Shown: positions 5,213 through 28,436 of the stretch, piece after piece | How the letters are laid out: every line of letters begins with the position of its first letter | How positions within the stretch are numbered: the stretch's first letter is position 1 | Assembly (NCBI GenBank): GCA_002898315.1 | Contig: BEHV01000001.1 | Coordinates: 186,001-250,000, forward strand | Direction of reading: 5' to 3' | DNA: 64,000 nucleotides | From: a bacterium HR19 | GTDB taxonomy: Bacteria; Calescibacteriota; Calescibacteriia; Calescibacteriales; Calescibacteriaceae | Notes under the pieces: model-generated | What the model was told of the DNA's origin: nothing | Database searches by the model: none | Seen by the model: the letters and a program-made list of their open reading frames with translations, nothing else | Translations under genes and position numbers: made by a program

Positions 5213-5222
5213 TCACCTCCTT
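5213..5222 (-). promoter_or_regulatory. Perfect Shine-Dalgarno overlapping the upstream stop codon
   Basis: On the minus strand this reads AAGGAGGTGA, a full match to the 16S anti-Shine-Dalgarno, 7 bases before the ATG of the solute-binding protein. The last three bases are the TGA stop of the chemoreceptor gene, so ribosomes ending on the receptor would sit on this site. This suggests translational coupling of the two genes. Confidence 0.85.
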
Positions 5223-6898
5223 TTGCTTATTATAAATTTTTCAGTATATGCTTTTATTTCTTCTACCTTGCTCATCAGGTTATCTGTATCTTCTGATATA
5301 CGGTTTATGTTTGACCTCAGGACCTCTGAAACCTGAGCTAAATTCACAGCAATGCTTGCAACATGAGAAGCAGATTCCCTCTGCTGAACCATAGCACTTT
5401 TGAAGTTATCAAGGTTAGAGACGAGAAAATCAATAAAAGACCTTATCGCATCAAGCTGTTGAGAAGATAGCTCAATGTTCTTTATTGACTCCTCAACAAA
5501 TCTGTATCCCTTCTCTATCTTATTATATGTCATATCCATAACTTCCATGTTTCTATTTATGGTGCTTTTTATATCTTTCAGGGTGTTTCTTATTCTTTCT
5601 GCGAGCTTTCTTATCTCTTCTGCAACAACTGCAAAACCTTTTCCTGCATCACCCGCACGAGACGCCTCAATAGAAGCGTTCAAAGAAAGCAAATTCACCT
5701 GATCAGAAATATCTTCTATTATTCCGACTATTTTGACTATCTTTTGTGAGGCAGAAATAAGCTCAGAAAATGTTTGTTTTATATCTTTTAGAGTATCTGA
5801 TACCCCGCTGACCGATTCTATTGATTTTCTTATAACACCTATGGAATGCTCTACTCCTGCCTTTTTCCGTTTCGCCTCATCTGAAACCGAGCTTATTCCT
5901 TTTTCTACATCCTTTGATATAGAAGAGAGTTCTTCCGAAGAAGAAGAGAGGAGTGCCTGCAAAGATAATTGCTCATTTGAAACCTTGCTCAACTCACCTT
6001 TCAAATCTGATAAACGAGAAGCAAAATCAACTATGAAACTCGTAAAACCTATCAATCTCTCTACAACATCTTTTATCCTTGAAATAAATCTATCTAAGCT
6101 TTCTGCAACCATAGCTATCTCATCTTTCCCAGAAAAACCAGTAGATGCTGAAAGGTCCACTTCTCCCGAACTTTTGAATATGCTTTTCGGAAAGTTAGAG
6201 AGATTTACAAGCGGTTTTGCAACAATAAAGTATCCAATAGCAACAAGAAGAACGATAACAGGCAAAATCGCAAAAGTGAGTGAGATAAAAAAGAATATAT
6301 TTTTCTTGTTGCTCCGCATTTCTCCTTCAACCCATTTCCTGACTTCATCTGTGGAAAAATAAATAAGCTGATCGGCTGACATAATAAGCTCATCATAAAT
6401 GGGCTGATACTCCATAATTTTCTCCTTGTACTCATCAAACCTGTTTTGCCTTATGTAATCTAATAGTTCTTGAACTTTCGTCTTGAATTCAAGGTATTTT
6501 GAATTTATGTCTTCTATTATATTTTTCGCTTCACCCGATTGATATTGATTACCCCCCCCCGCAATTTTACCCTTAATTACTTCTATGCTGTCTTCAATAA
6601 ACTTTGTGGTCTGCTCTATTGTTCCCTCATATATACCTAAAATATCTTCTCCGCTTATACTTCCCGACTCCATGCTTATTCTCAAAAGGGTGTTCATAAG
6701 TGAGTTCAAATTTGATTTGAGCTGGCTTGCCTCAACAGAAACAGTATAGTTTTCCTGATACATCGTCTCAAGTCCTTTCCTCATTTTTATGAGCAGAAAG
6801 ACCGCAAAACTTGCAACAGATGAAAAAAGAATAAAAACAAAAATAAAAGGCAAAATGAATTTATATACTATCTTTATATTCTGTAATGGTCTCCGCAT
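5213..6898 (-). CDS. Transmembrane methyl-accepting chemotaxis protein with an in-frame G9 tract
   Basis: A 561-residue chemoreceptor. It has a first membrane helix at about residues 10-37, a helical periplasmic sensor domain, a second membrane helix near 199-225, a HAMP-like linker, and a cytoplasmic signalling coiled coil. The conserved hairpin tip is present ([15 protein letters not shown], then [18 protein letters not shown]). The sensor segment contains nine consecutive G bases on the coding strand (6552-6560) coding A113-G-G-G-N117. It is the first gene of a pair with the solute-binding protein downstream, suggesting that protein could present its ligand to this receptor. No cheA, cheW or cheY is in the window. 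The start is ATG. Confidence 0.95.
6552..6560 (-). repeat. Homopolymeric G9 tract inside the chemoreceptor gene
   Basis: Nine consecutive C on the plus strand, G on the coding strand, in a region of low GC. The reading is GCG GGG GGG GGT AAT. Adding one G turns the next codon into TAA; losing one shifts the frame. It is the longest G/C homopolymer noticed in the window and has the form of a slipped-strand contingency tract. Confidence 0.9.
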
Positions 6899-7053: not shown

Positions 7054-7464
7054 GTGGGAAGCTTTGAACTTTTTGAGCTACTCAAAGAAAAGCTCGGAGA
7101 AGAAACCGCAAGAAAACTCATTGACTACATTGAAAACATAAAAAGTCAGGTCGTCACAACAGATGTCCTCATAAAATTGCTTGACCTCACAAAATCTGAA
7201 ATCATCTCAAAAACTGAAAAAGATAAAACCGAAATATTAGCTAAAATTGAAGAACTGAAAATAAGTACAGATAGAAAAATTGAAGAGCTGAGAATGAGCT
7301 TTGAGCTCAAAATAAAAGAACTTGATTCTAAAATTGAGCAGTACAGATTAGAAACTCAAAGAGATATTGAAAAAACAAAGTCATCGCTTATAAAGTGGAT
7401 GATTGGACTTATGATAGCTCAAACCACCCTCATCATCTCTGTCATAGCTTTCCTGTCAAAATAA
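7054..7464 (+). CDS. Membrane-anchored coiled-coil protein, short repeat form (DUF1640-like)
   Basis: A 136-residue protein: an N-terminal helical region (FELFELLKEKLGEE), a Lys/Glu-rich coiled coil, and a single C-terminal membrane helix (WMIGLMIAQTTLIISVIAFL). This layout and the IKWMIGLMIAQT start of the anchor resemble small coiled-coil membrane proteins of the DUF1640 type common in thermophiles; function unknown. The start is GTG at 7054, the only early start in frame, with no clear ribosome-binding site. It holds one copy of an 11-residue unit (ISTDRKIEELR) where the paralogue at 22428 holds six. Outside the repeats the two genes are identical in every base, including about 25 bases before the start. 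Confidence 0.85.
   Translation: MGSFELFELLKEKLGEETARKLIDYIENIKSQVVTTDVLIKLLDLTKSEIISKTEKDKTEILAKIEELKISTDRKIEELRMSFELKIKELDSKIEQYRLETQRDIEKTKSSLIKWMIGLMIAQTTLIISVIAFLSK
7261..7293 (+). repeat. Single 33-bp coiled-coil unit
   Basis: One 33-base unit encoding 11 residues of hendecad type. It equals the last of the six units in the paralogue at 22635-22832. The 165-bp length difference between the two genes is exactly five such units. Confidence 0.9.
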
Positions 7465-22427: not shown

Positions 22428-23003
22428 GTGGGAAGCTTTGAACTTTTTGAGCTACTCAAAGAAAAGCTCGGAGAAGAAACCGCAAGAAAACTCATTGACT
22501 ACATTGAAAACATAAAAAGTCAGGTCGTCACAACAGATGTCCTCATAAAATTGCTTGACCTCACAAAATCTGAAATCATCTCAAAAACTGAAAAAGATAA
22601 AACCGAAATATTAGCTAAAATTGAAGAACTGAAAATAAACACAGATAAAAAAATTGAAGAGTTGAGAATAGAAACAGACAGAAAAATTGAAGAGTTGAGA
22701 ATAAGTACAGATAGAAAAATTGAAGAGTCAAGAATAAGCATAGATAGAAAAATAGAAGAGTTGAGAATAGAAACAGACAAAAAAATTGAAGAGTTGAGAA
22801 TAAGTACAGATAGAAAAATTGAAGAGCTGAGAATGAGCTTTGAGCTCAAAATAAAAGAACTTGATTCTAAAATTGAGCAGTACAGATTAGAAACTCAAAG
22901 AGATATTGAAAAAACAAAGTCATCGCTTATAAAGTGGATGATTGGACTTATGATAGCTCAAACCACCCTCATCATCTCTGTCATAGCTTTCCTGTCAAAA
23001 TAA
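22428..23003 (+). CDS. Membrane-anchored coiled-coil protein, long repeat form (DUF1640-like)
   Basis: A 191-residue paralogue of the 7054 protein, with the same N-terminal region and the same C-terminal membrane helix, but a coiled coil longer by 55 residues. Six near-perfect 11-residue units of the type I-x-T-D-x-K-I-E-E-L-R run from residue 70 to 135. Hendecads favour a straight or slightly right-handed coil, as in other thermophile stalk proteins. The start is GTG. Outside the repeat region the DNA is identical to the other copy from 22403 to 23007. It sits just behind the PII gene, which may put it under nitrogen-operon read-through. Function unknown. Confidence 0.85.
   Translation: MGSFELFELLKEKLGEETARKLIDYIENIKSQVVTTDVLIKLLDLTKSEIISKTEKDKTEILAKIEELKINTDKKIEELRIETDRKIEELRISTDRKIEESRISIDRKIEELRIETDKKIEELRISTDRKIEELRMSFELKIKELDSKIEQYRLETQRDIEKTKSSLIKWMIGLMIAQTTLIISVIAFLSK
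22635..22832 (+). repeat. Six tandem 33-bp units in the coiled-coil gene
   Basis: Units start at 22635, 22668, 22701, 22734, 22767 and 22800, each 33 bases coding 11 residues. They differ from each other by a few bases only. The last unit equals the single unit of the 7054 gene, as expected if copies were gained or lost by unequal recombination or slippage without breaking the frame. Confidence 0.93.
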
Positions 23004-24822: not shown

Positions 24823-25443
24823 TTAGGGATTAAGATATGTTTTCTTCCAAACCCCGTCTTGAAGGTAATAGAGGATTCTTTTGTGCAATCTTTCTTGTGT
24901 GTAGATCAAGAACTCGTATTCAAATGGTATAACTCTGAAACCGAGCCAGTAAGGCGGGCGCGGAACATCTTTCCCTTCAAACTCCTTTTTTAAACGTTCA
25001 AACCTTTCAAGGAGTTCTTCATAGGATTTGAGTGGCTGGCTCTGTTGAGATGCCCAAGCAGATATTTTAGCAGTACGCGGTCTTGTGTTGAAATACTCAT
25101 CTGCTTCCTTTTCTGAAACCCTGTCTGCCTTCCCTCTTACTTTGACCTGACCCCCGGTATTCTCCCACCAAAAAAGCAAACTCACAAAGCAGTTCTTCTC
25201 GATCTCTTGACTTTTCCGCGATAGCAAACTCGTGAAAAAGATAAATCCATCTTCCTTTCCGAACCTTTTCAGAAGAACAAACCTGCTATTTGGTTTCCCA
25301 TCTAATCCAACAGTTGAAAGAACCATAGCATCAGGATTTTTCTCCTCCTTCTTTGCTATCTCATACCAGACCGAAAAAACCTCAAAAGGGTCCTGACATA
25401 GTTCAAAAATATCAAGATATTTTTCAATCTTCGCATCAGACAT
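24823..25443 (-). CDS. pdxH: Pyridoxamine 5'-phosphate oxidase
   Basis: A 206-residue FMN enzyme that oxidises pyridoxine or pyridoxamine phosphate to PLP. Segments RFVLLKRFGKEDGFIFFT, SRKSQEIEKN, LLFWWENTGGQVKVRGKA, and SAWASQQS match the family in order, and PPYWLGFRVIP precedes the C-terminal RLHKR. The family usually ends in a Leu-x-Pro motif; here TYLNP takes its place. It is a single gene with about 60-90 base spacers to its minus-strand neighbours. Confidence 0.95.
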   Translation of the reverse strand: MSDAKIEKYLDIFELCQDPFEVFSVWYEIAKKEEKNPDAMVLSTVGLDGKPNSRFVLLKRFGKEDGFIFFTSLLSRKSQEIEKNCFVSLLFWWENTGGQVKVRGKADRVSEKEADEYFNTRPRTAKISAWASQQSQPLKSYEELLERFERLKKEFEGKDVPRPPYWLGFRVIPFEYEFLIYTQERLHKRILYYLQDGVWKKTYLNP

Positions 25444-25503: not shown

Positions 25504-26379
25504 TTAATCAATCCTGATGGTTTTTAATTTTATAGATACACTTTCTAATGATTGGATGATATTCAGAAGTTCAGAAGAAATTCTTGCAATTTCAAAAGCC
25601 CTTTTCTCTATCTCCTTTGCAGAAATATTTTGCTCCTCAACAGCAGATGAAATAGAACTCAAATCCTCTGTAGCTTTCTCAGATGATTCCTTTATAATTG
25701 AAAAATAGTTATCTATATTTCTCAGCTCCTGAAGGAGTTCGTTCGCAAAACTTGATATTAAGTTTATCTCTTCCCTCATTTTATTTACAAATTCAGTTAA
25801 CCGTTGAAGTTTTGATTTGCTTTCTTTTGATATATGTGATGTTCTTCCTGCAAGTTTTCTCACTTCTTCTGCGACAACAGCAAAGCCCTTTCCGTGTTCC
25901 CCTGCTCTTGCCGCCTCAATTGTAGCGTTCAAAGCTAAAAGATTTATCTGTTCCGCTATATCTTCTATCTCAGAAAATGAACCAGATATGCCCTTATATA
26001 TATCAAGTAGCTCATTTATGCTATCTGAAAGAAACCTTATCCTCTCTAAACTTCTTATGATAAAATCTATCTTTGATTTCAGAAGTTTATCGTAGTGGCT
26101 TATCTCATCTCTGAGCCGAGCCATCCTCTGATTTATCTCAGATGTTCTCCTTGATATCTCAGAAATAGTAGCAGAAAACTCCTCATAAGAAGTGCTAAAA
26201 GTTGAACTGTAAATATTAAAATTTCTTGCAATCTTGAAAATTATCTCCACAGATTCCCGAAATAGAGAAAGAAATAAGTTAAATTTATAAACATAGGGAG
26301 CTACCTTTCTCAAATTCTGCGCCAGAACCCCTGAATCAGTGTTATCTGAATTTTTTTGCTTCTTTCTCAAAAACCACAT
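25504..26379 (-). CDS. Soluble chemoreceptor paired with the diiron protein
   Basis: A 291-residue MCP without membrane helices or a recognisable sensor domain. The N-terminal third is helical with an unusual aromatic patch ([12 protein letters not shown]). The signalling hairpin tip is clear: [15 protein letters not shown] followed by [18 protein letters not shown]. It begins 15 bases after the ODP-like gene with a fair AGGGGAT ribosome-binding site, so the two are co-transcribed. Its sensing input is probably the diiron protein, as in the Treponema ODP and receptor pair. It must couple to a CheA/CheW encoded elsewhere. Confidence 0.93.
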
Positions 26380-26394
26380 ATTCTAATCCCCTCA

Positions 26395-27177
26395 CTAATA
26401 ACCGTAGATTTCATCTAAAATGTCATCTCCACATTTTAGATTTTCAAGCCATGAGAGAAACCTTTTGACATTCTCACCCCTGAATATCGCTCCGTGTTGT
26501 GGAGCTATTATATCAACTTCATATTTCCTAACCATTGAAACCCATTTTCTCAAAACTTTATTGCTTTTCATATACCTTTTGTGAAACCATTCCATATACT
26601 TCACATGCTTTTCAAAATCTTCAACCTCAAAATAAGTATCGTTTTCTGGTATGACAGAAGCCCCTATATCTCCCGAAAAAAGAATCTTTGACCTTGAATC
26701 ATATAAAGAAAAATTACCTTCTGAATGAAGAAAGTGGGCGGGAATTATATGAAGACGGGAAAAAGGAAGGTCTATTGTTTTGCCTGAATCTTGAATCGCT
26801 TCAACCCCTGATGTATCCGCCGCTCCAAAATGTGGTAGGAATCTGATCCAAAGACGCGAGATTAAAATCTTTGCGTTCGGACAGACATTCATAAAGATAC
26901 CTATCCCGGAGCTAACATCAGGGTCCTGATGAGAATAAAAAATATATCTTATCTGTTCAAGAGAAATATATCTTGAAATGTTTGTAATTATAAAGGGAAA
27001 AACGTGAACTCCACCTGGATCAAGAAGAACAGCTTCTCTTCCAGAAATTATAAGGTACTGATTCGCTTGAACTTCTCCCGCTCCTTTATACGACCAGCCC
27101 AACCAGATAAACTTGTGATTTTCATCTGAATACAGCAATTTGCCAGATTCTGCTTCTTGCTCTGAAATACCCTTCAT
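26395..27177 (-). CDS. ODP-type diiron metallo-beta-lactamase-fold protein, probable O2/iron sensor
   Basis: A 260-residue protein with the diiron core of flavodiiron proteins but no flavodoxin domain. Candidate ligands are H83-x-D85-x-D87 (SHQDPD), H148 or H151 in PAHFLHSEG, D170 in SGDIG and H228 in APQHG. The motif is HxDxD instead of the HxExD usual in flavodiiron enzymes. This is the pattern of the oxygen-binding diiron proteins that feed chemotaxis receptors. Upstream of the ATG there is no Shine-Dalgarno; a (CA)6 repeat lies in its place. It is first of a two-gene unit with a soluble chemoreceptor. A plain NO/O2 reductase role is the alternative. Confidence 0.85.
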   Translation of the reverse strand: MKGISEQEAESGKLLYSDENHKFIWLGWSYKGAGEVQANQYLIISGREAVLLDPGGVHVFPFIITNISRYISLEQIRYIFYSHQDPDVSSGIGIFMNVCPNAKILISRLWIRFLPHFGAADTSGVEAIQDSGKTIDLPFSRLHIIPAHFLHSEGNFSLYDSRSKILFSGDIGASVIPENDTYFEVEDFEKHVKYMEWFHKRYMKSNKVLRKWVSMVRKYEVDIIAPQHGAIFRGENVKRFLSWLENLKCGDDILDEIYGY

Positions 27178-27184
27178 TTTGCTT

Positions 27185-27197
27185 TGTGTGTGTGTGT
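27185..27197 (-). repeat. (CA)6 dinucleotide repeat just upstream of the diiron protein start
   Basis: Six TG units on the plus strand (CA on the coding strand) sit 8-20 bases before the ATG of the ODP-like gene, where a ribosome-binding site would be. Such a repeat can change length and so alter translation or the promoter to start distance. Confidence 0.75.
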
Positions 27198-27250
27198 GTA
27201 TTTGCTATTCATAACCAAATATATAATTTATAATTTTCCGAAAAAATTTT

Positions 27251-28324
27251 CTATGTTTTATTGATTTTATCTTTCAGGTTCTGAAATTCTTTTTCCAAAT
27301 TTTTCAACCTCTCAAAAATTTCAGGAAGTTTAAGGTATAGGGAGTGGATTTTGAGAAATTTTGTTCTTTCCATAGCAGGTTCTCCCATAATAACTTTTCC
27401 TCCTTGGACATCTGAGATTATAGCAGACCTTGCAGCAACAACCGAAAAATCACCGACTTTGACATGGTCTACAACTCCAACCTGTCCGCCAAAAACGCAA
27501 CCTGATCCTATTTCAGAGCTTCCGGCTATCCCCGTAAGGGCAGCTATTCTCGTTCCACTTCCTATTTTGACATTGTGAGCCACCTGAACAAGATTATCTA
27601 TCTTCACATCATCTCCTATTTCTGTTGAACCCATTGTAGCTCTGTCAACGCAGGTATTGGCGCCTAATTCCGCTCTTTTACCTATCTTCACATTTCCGAC
27701 CTGTGGTATTTTGATTATCTCACCGAAGAAAGAGAAATATCCAAAACCATCAGCACCTATAACAGCTCCTGCGTGAATTATTGAGTCATCTCCTATCTCT
27801 GAAAACGGATACAGGACAGCGTTGGGAAATATCACAACTCCGTTTCCTATTTTAGAAAAATCGCCCACGAATACACCCGGAAATAGGACACAGTTTTCCC
27901 CTATCTCTACCTGCTTACCGACATAGCAGAAAGGGAATATTATTGTGTTTTTTCCAATCTTGGCAGAAGGAGATACAAAAGACAGGTTGAGAGATGTTTT
28001 AGGAAAATACGATTTATACTCCCAAAGAGAGAGAACTTTAACCATAGCGATATAAGGATTTTCAACCTCTATGAAGTTTTTGACCTTTATCTTTCTTGAA
28101 CTTATTTCTTCTTTTTTTCTTTCTACAAAACCTGATTCAACAACAAGACAACTCGCACGGGTCTCGTAAATAAACTTTTCATACTTTGGATTTACAAGAA
28201 AAGATATATCTCCTTCCTTCGCTTTCTCTATACTTTGCGGAGAAAAAACAAGTTCATCTGGATTTCCAAAGATTTTACCGCCTATAAAATCTGATATTTC
28301 CCTCAACGACTTTTCTAACTTCAT
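27251..28324 (-). CDS. lpxD: UDP-3-O-acylglucosamine N-acyltransferase LpxD
   Basis: A 357-residue lipid A enzyme that adds the N-linked hydroxyacyl chain. An N-terminal uridine-binding domain contains PKYEKFIYETRASCLVV; a left-handed beta helix of hexapeptide repeats (for example KIGKNTIIFP, EIGENCVLFP) runs through the middle; catalytic His is in QVAHNVKIG; and a C-terminal helix ends the chain. Two adjacent ATG codons are possible starts. No other lpx gene is adjacent. It shows that the organism makes lipid A. The gene is divergent from trpA. Confidence 0.95.
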   Translation of the reverse strand: MKLEKSLREISDFIGGKIFGNPDELVFSPQSIEKAKEGDISFLVNPKYEKFIYETRASCLVVESGFVERKKEEISSRKIKVKNFIEVENPYIAMVKVLSLWEYKSYFPKTSLNLSFVSPSAKIGKNTIIFPFCYVGKQVEIGENCVLFPGVFVGDFSKIGNGVVIFPNAVLYPFSEIGDDSIIHAGAVIGADGFGYFSFFGEIIKIPQVGNVKIGKRAELGANTCVDRATMGSTEIGDDVKIDNLVQVAHNVKIGSGTRIAALTGIAGSSEIGSGCVFGGQVGVVDHVKVGDFSVVAARSAIISDVQGGKVIMGEPAMERTKFLKIHSLYLKLPEIFERLKNLEKEFQNLKDKINKT

Positions 28325-28436
28325 CATAAAGAAAGATTTTTATCATTTTGTTTTGTATTACGGAAAATTGAGAACAAAGTCGGAAAATCAGTTTGCAAAG
28401 TGGTAAAAACAGAATCATATCACTAAAAACATTTTT

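Follow-up and report, generated by a model that had tools for sequence, protein, structure and literature searches.

The two minus-strand genes at positions 25504 to 27177 of the window, by which we mean the whole 64,000-nt stretch analysed, very probably form a two-gene oxygen/iron-sensing chemotaxis module, in which a diiron protein (ODP) would act on a soluble chemoreceptor (MCP) and, by way of the receptor array and CheA, on the flagella. The pair belongs to an already known ODP-MCP kind, to which Calescibacteriota is an added lineage; new here is that the operon begins with an (AC)n tract, and this is the part that deserves follow-up. Muok et al. reportedly described the ODP-MCP system in 2019, with coupling in eight phyla. 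The pair and its flanking genes are as follows.

26395 to 27177, minus strand: ODP, 260 amino acids, with an HQDPD motif (PF19583, 8.4e-77)
26380 to 26394, minus strand: 15-bp intergenic gap from ODP to MCP, which lie on the same strand as an operon
25504 to 26379, minus strand: soluble MCP, 291 amino acids (PF00015, 1.4e-29)
27251 to 28327, minus strand: lpxD (LpxD/hexapeptide acyltransferase), the upstream neighbour, from Pfam
24823 to 25443, minus strand: pyridoxamine 5'-phosphate oxidase family gene, the downstream neighbour, from Pfam

Judged from its sequence and predicted structure, the 260-residue protein is a stand-alone ODP of the chemotaxis type, with the fold of 6qwo and 6r9n. The first-pass annotation had described it as a diiron metallo-beta-lactamase-fold protein lacking flavodoxin. 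This description is borne out by a match to PF19583 (oxygen-binding diiron protein, ODP) that covers the whole profile (1-194 of 194) at 257.9 bits, against a curated cut-off of 27.2, and by a Pfam scan in which no flavodoxin domain appears in the 260 residues. The closest solved ODP relative is that of a thermophile, T. maritima (6qrq and 6qwo, whose PDB titles read “chemotaxis sensor ODP”), to which the AlphaFold2 model (pLDDT 95) compares at 55% identity and a TM-score of 0.92; identity to the T. denticola structures 6r9n (peroxo-diiron) and 6qnm (apo), which are titled likewise, is about 51%. The diiron metallo-beta-lactamase fold is common to ODP and the flavodiiron proteins (ROO, FprA, flavorubredoxin and TM0755), which the model matches at TM 0.7-0.77 with 16-19% identity. 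However, the flavodiiron enzymes carry an FMN flavodoxin domain and an HxExD motif and reduce O2 or NO, and the window ODP has neither of these two features.

The HQDPD motif occupies ODP residues 83-87, and alignment places the likely ligands at H83, D85, D87, H148 or H151, D170 and H228, together with Q227. H83, Q84, D85, P86, D87, H148, H151, D170 and H228 are invariant in 81 ODPs; for HQDPD this count is in part circular, as the motif itself was contained in one of the three search patterns. HQDPD is also found in both crystallised ODPs and in the PF19583-derived set, neither of which is a circular source. The Gln beside the last ligand His, Q227, is kept in 80 of the 81 proteins, and position 88 is V or I among them (V88 in the window), with the third His of motif 2 lost; both features agree with review text on the T. 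maritima ODP. The first-pass annotation had singled out HxDxD as standing in place of the usual HxExD. The motif is indeed present, but given that HQDPD is invariant in the 81 ODPs and occurs in the crystallised proteins, it is not special to the window protein. An unusual site is therefore ruled out, and HxDxD, on the sequences compared, is a family signature that sets ODPs apart from flavodiiron enzymes.

The adjacent MCP had been described at first pass as having neither a membrane helix nor a sensor domain, and this is what we find. PF00015 is its sole domain above the Pfam cut-off, no stretch reaches the hydropathy threshold for a transmembrane (TM) segment, and neither the Pfam scan nor the AlphaFold2 model contains a HAMP or ligand-binding/sensor domain. 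The model consists of one antiparallel helical hairpin (residues 14-158 and 160-287) preceded by 13 disordered N-terminal residues, and the signalling domain has its conserved tip intact. Structural matches are to 2ch7 and to receptors of T. maritima, among them the soluble chemoreceptor 3g67/3g6b; the solved chain of the soluble T. maritima receptor is 213 aa, about 80 residues shorter than the window MCP. Over 207 residues (62-268), the window MCP and the membrane MCP at 5213-6898 can be aligned with no gap, and the spacing of landmarks, which were picked by eye, equals that of two further receptors. Since the soluble MCP is of the membrane MCP length class, it is plausible from these alignments that soluble and membrane receptors share one array. 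The N-terminus of the soluble MCP (26350-26379) starts with the aromatic-basic residues MWFLRKK, and similar starts occur in ODP-coupled MCPs of other phyla (MFFKKRKK, MLWKKK and MAWFRRR). Such a start could bind the membrane surface.

The window's assembly is 1.88 Mb and 82% complete, and its nearest named relatives are Candidatus Calescibacterium genomes (L043 and L044) of the phylum Calescibacteriota. Among its gene products are two of the CheA type, three separate CheW proteins and flagellin; five receptors pass the Pfam cut-off, and there are two strong matches to COX1 (haem-copper oxidases). Flagellar genes and haem-copper oxidases are also present in published Calescamantes genomes (PMC4791363). 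In the proposed module, a cytoplasmic ODP would hold two irons and bind O2 reversibly, as reported for the T. denticola and T. maritima relatives, and would change conformation and act on the signalling hairpin of the adjacent sensorless MCP. The MCP, being of the same length class as the membrane chemoreceptors, would insert among them in the array and bias CheA activity, so that the flagella would carry the cell toward a favourable O2 level. The O2 and iron binding, ODP-MCP contact, CheA control and direction of the response in this scheme are modelled on characterised relatives.

The first-pass annotation had named the Treponema ODP and receptor as the precedent, and the comparison stands. 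The T. denticola pair TDE2498/TDE2496 combines an ODP oxygen sensor with an MCP without transmembrane or sensing modules, and modulates CheA (PMC7666581). According to a review (PMC6978683), iron and oxygen are bound by ODP, whose interaction with its cognate receptors depends on conformation. The window has the same gene pair, motif and fold as TDE2498/TDE2496, a likeness that concerns genes and fold. By analogy with T. denticola, direct contact between ODP and receptor may be weak or indirect, because cryo-ET of that array gave no visible position for ODP (PMC7666581). Unlike the T. denticola pair, the window pair has a thermophilic host from a different phylum and an (AC)n tract at the operon head. 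The first-pass annotation had also stressed a probably different, thermophilic lineage. The lineage is indeed different, Calescibacteriota, but a thermophilic precedent exists in the T. maritima ODP (6qwo), and thermophilic examples of ODP are therefore not new. With the window pair, the known range of the ODP chemotaxis sensor comes to include a thermophilic phylum that is uncultured and deep-branching.

Additional evidence came from the 80 ODPs most similar to that of the window among 84,980 species genomes, a sample of close relatives and not a census of all ODPs. The first-pass annotation had suggested a search for co-occurrence of the two genes across genomes; among these best 80 relatives, 43 have a TM-less MCP directly downstream of ODP on the same strand. 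The ODP-MCP gap is between -40 and +36 bp in 42 of the 43 other pairs, and pairs occur in Spirochaetota, Aquificota, Thermotogota, Synergistota, Calescibacteriota, Nitrospirota, Campylobacterota, Pseudomonadota and archaea. Distances among ODPs and among MCPs are correlated (Mantel r 0.78 for n=46; none of 2000 permutations reached this value), a correlation that is partly explained by shared descent, and the nearest neighbours of ODP and MCP are identical in 40 of 46 cases. The MCP-coupled ODPs cluster on the ODP tree, with 4 label changes compared with 27.9 for shuffled labels. It had been argued at first pass that homologues lying mostly beside rubredoxin or reductase genes would speak against a receptor partner. 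This is not what the 80 ODPs show: a regex scan of all six frames, out to about 4 kb from each gene, turned up no rubredoxin motif. The first-pass proposal that an ODP-type sensor would feed the soluble receptor is thus supported by the gene pairing, the fold and its ligands, the co-evolution and the lack of a redox-partner context. The window pair also strengthens the view that the ODP and the soluble MCP move together as a single co-evolving unit in bacteria and archaea.

The other 37 of the 80 ODPs have other neighbours, typed by a Pfam scan of representatives as HD-domain (HD-GYP-like), GGDEF-EAL, PAS histidine kinase and SCO1 proteins, and ODP is therefore not tied to MCPs in general. From these neighbourhoods, ODP appears to be a sensor with exchangeable outputs, of which the window copy falls in the chemotaxis group. 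Oceanospirillales-type genomes have two tandem ODP genes followed by an HD-domain (HD-GYP-like) protein (L051, L052, L053, L055, L059, L071, L075 and L083), and the presence of this protein suggests a c-di-GMP output rather than chemotaxis. A GGDEF-EAL protein follows ODP in Betaproteobacteria and one Aquificota bacterium, and a PAS histidine kinase follows it in Campylobacterota (L104, L107, L111-L113, L116, L119, L121, L122; L090-L092, L096, L097).

Conservation of the locus can be followed in related genomes, labelled here G000 (the window's assembly), G002 (a second Calescibacterium) and G001, G003 and G004 (related genomes). Both flanks are kept in G002, the pyridoxamine 5'-phosphate oxidase gene as well as lpxD, and the lpxD flank is changed in G004 and G001. 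The ODP-MCP pair itself stays together across G000, G001 and G004 while the outer flanks differ. Compared with the G002 orthologues, both genes are under purifying selection, with omega 0.07-0.09 for ODP and 0.17 for MCP. In a scan for promoters and terminators, these were not more frequent than in shuffles. A plasmid-borne or recently moved pair was considered and rejected; a plasmid search returned relatives at 25-46% identity only. Near the pair in G004 is a gene for a single-domain chemoreceptor zinc-binding protein (CZB, PF13682) of 125 aa (L014 2970-3347).

Could the two proteins instead work apart? That the MCP is a stand-alone receptor signalling without ODP, for example reporting redox or membrane state through its aromatic/basic N-terminus, is highly improbable. 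The disorder of the MWFLRKK segment in the model and the recurrence of such starts in several lineages are consistent with it, but the intact hairpin tip, the purifying selection on both genes and the agreement of the ODP and MCP trees argue for a receptor that works with ODP. Even less credible is a diiron protein that serves as a small O2-/NO-reducing enzyme or an iron/zinc protein beside an incidental MCP, which would fit the fold shared with flavodiiron proteins and the SCO1 gene next to ODP in some Aquificaceae, but is opposed by the missing flavodoxin domain, the lack of a rubredoxin motif around the 80 ODPs in the regex scan, the 43 of 80 that stand directly upstream of a soluble MCP, the persistence of the pair while its outer flanks change, and the conservation of ODP-specific residues.

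The repeat at the head of the operon was surveyed by pattern searches of the assemblies, and comprises two features.

27185 to 27199, minus strand: (AC)7.5 microsatellite (coding strand) just 5' of the ODP start codon, from pattern searches
27174 to 27212, minus strand: predicted short leader ORF running through the repeat, from frame analysis

No other tract of (AC)5.5 or longer occurs in the 1.88-Mb assembly, and (AC)7.5 arose in none of 100 shuffles of the window. Tracts of (AC)7 are present in four of five Calescibacteriota genomes versus 5 of 111 other genomes (Fisher p 8e-5), and the control repeat (AG)7 is absent from the five. None of the ODP loci checked in other phyla has an (AC)n tract in this position, and repeats of 2-4 bases at ODP starts are absent across the 80 loci, where the one simple run is a T10 in C. 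nevadense.

The five genomes have six (AC)n tracts, located at ODP in G000 and G002, at a cytochrome P460 gene in G002, G003 and G004, and at a signal-peptide gene in G002. Five of the six thus head an ODP-MCP or a cytochrome P460 (-MCP) operon; as orthologues count more than once, the six represent three independent locus types, two of them chemosensory. The tracts upstream of the P460 gene (PF16694) are (AC)13-17 (L155 3463-4074, L157 3122-5229 and L156 3010-4226). A membrane MCP comes next after the P460 gene in G002 and G004. In G003 the tract precedes an incomplete P460 frame and a putative MCP, whose domain is unconfirmed because the contig ends within this next gene. NO or hydroxylamine in the periplasm could be what the P460-MCP pair senses.

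In the window, the leader ORF reads ATG-AAT-AGC-AAA-T(AC)n, encoding MNSKYTHTHKAK*, and its TGA overlaps the ATG of ODP (ATGA). With one unit fewer or two more, the leader would fuse in frame to ODP, which keeps its own ATG downstream of the repeat. In G002, the tract of the ODP operon has 17 units compared with 7.5 in the window, and ODP's own ATG is changed to ATA. There, only the ATG preceding (AC)17 gives an open, in-frame ODP, and one or two more AC units would break the frame; with its own start codon lost, this ODP therefore depends on the frame of the repeat. The G002 signal-peptide gene (L154 159-1384, C36) has a strong Shine-Dalgarno sequence, an ATG and (AC)9, which lies one unit out of frame with an ORF that is otherwise open for 369 codons or more. 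From its sequence, this gene looks like the OFF state of a phase-variable exported protein.

The window tract is a pure, rare repeat at a gene's 5' end, which is one of the features looked for in a phase-variable locus. We tentatively propose that the ODP-MCP operon may be a contingency locus, in which (AC)n slippage would switch or tune ODP translation and cells of one hot-spring population would differ in aerotaxis. The frames are facts of the sequence; from them we infer that the tract may slip in nature and alter expression, and slippage-controlled expression of the ODP operon is plausible. The main rival is that the tract is not a switch and acts only as a translation enhancer, itself a possible reading though short of a probable one. 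Each of the six tracts begins 10-18 nt after an ATG, and three have a perfect TATAAT 15-18 nt before that ATG, a spacing that would put the AUG close to the mRNA 5' end. Both leadered and leaderless mRNAs are translated more when CA repeats closely follow the start codon; for E. coli, enhancement by CA repeats downstream of the start codon is noted in PMC9031893, citing Martin-Farmer and Janssen 1999. While these data are consistent with a pure enhancer, in G002 the repeat shifts the exported-protein ORF one unit out of frame and ODP relies on the repeat's frame, and such dependence counts against it because an enhancer alone would need none. If the contingency reading holds, chemosensor operons would be preferred (AC)n targets in the family of Calescibacterium, given that five of the six tracts head an ODP-MCP or P460 (-MCP) operon.

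There is a parallel in the Helicobacter pylori tlpB mRNA leader, where a simple sequence repeat likewise precedes a chemoreceptor operon and a length-variable G-repeat sets expression (PMC8295292). One difference is that the tlpB repeat is a homopolymer read by the sRNA RepG, whereas the window repeat is a dinucleotide located after an AUG. Another is that the tlpB repeat is length-variable, whereas the window tract is known from assemblies, in which it differs between species. If the window tract does vary, oxygen sensing would offer an unusual example of bet-hedging in a bacterium that is not host-associated.

Other repeats were observed in the window. A G9 run (coding strand) at 6552-6560 lies in the periplasmic part of the minus-strand membrane MCP at 5213-6898. 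It is the only G/C run longer than 6 in the 64 kb, which has 36% GC (expected about 0.03), and a one-base change in it would truncate the MCP at about 116-126 aa. In addition, a coiled-coil gene is present in two near-copies (22428-23003 and 7054-7464), distinguished by how many 33-bp in-frame repeats they contain (22617-22834, 6.6 copies).
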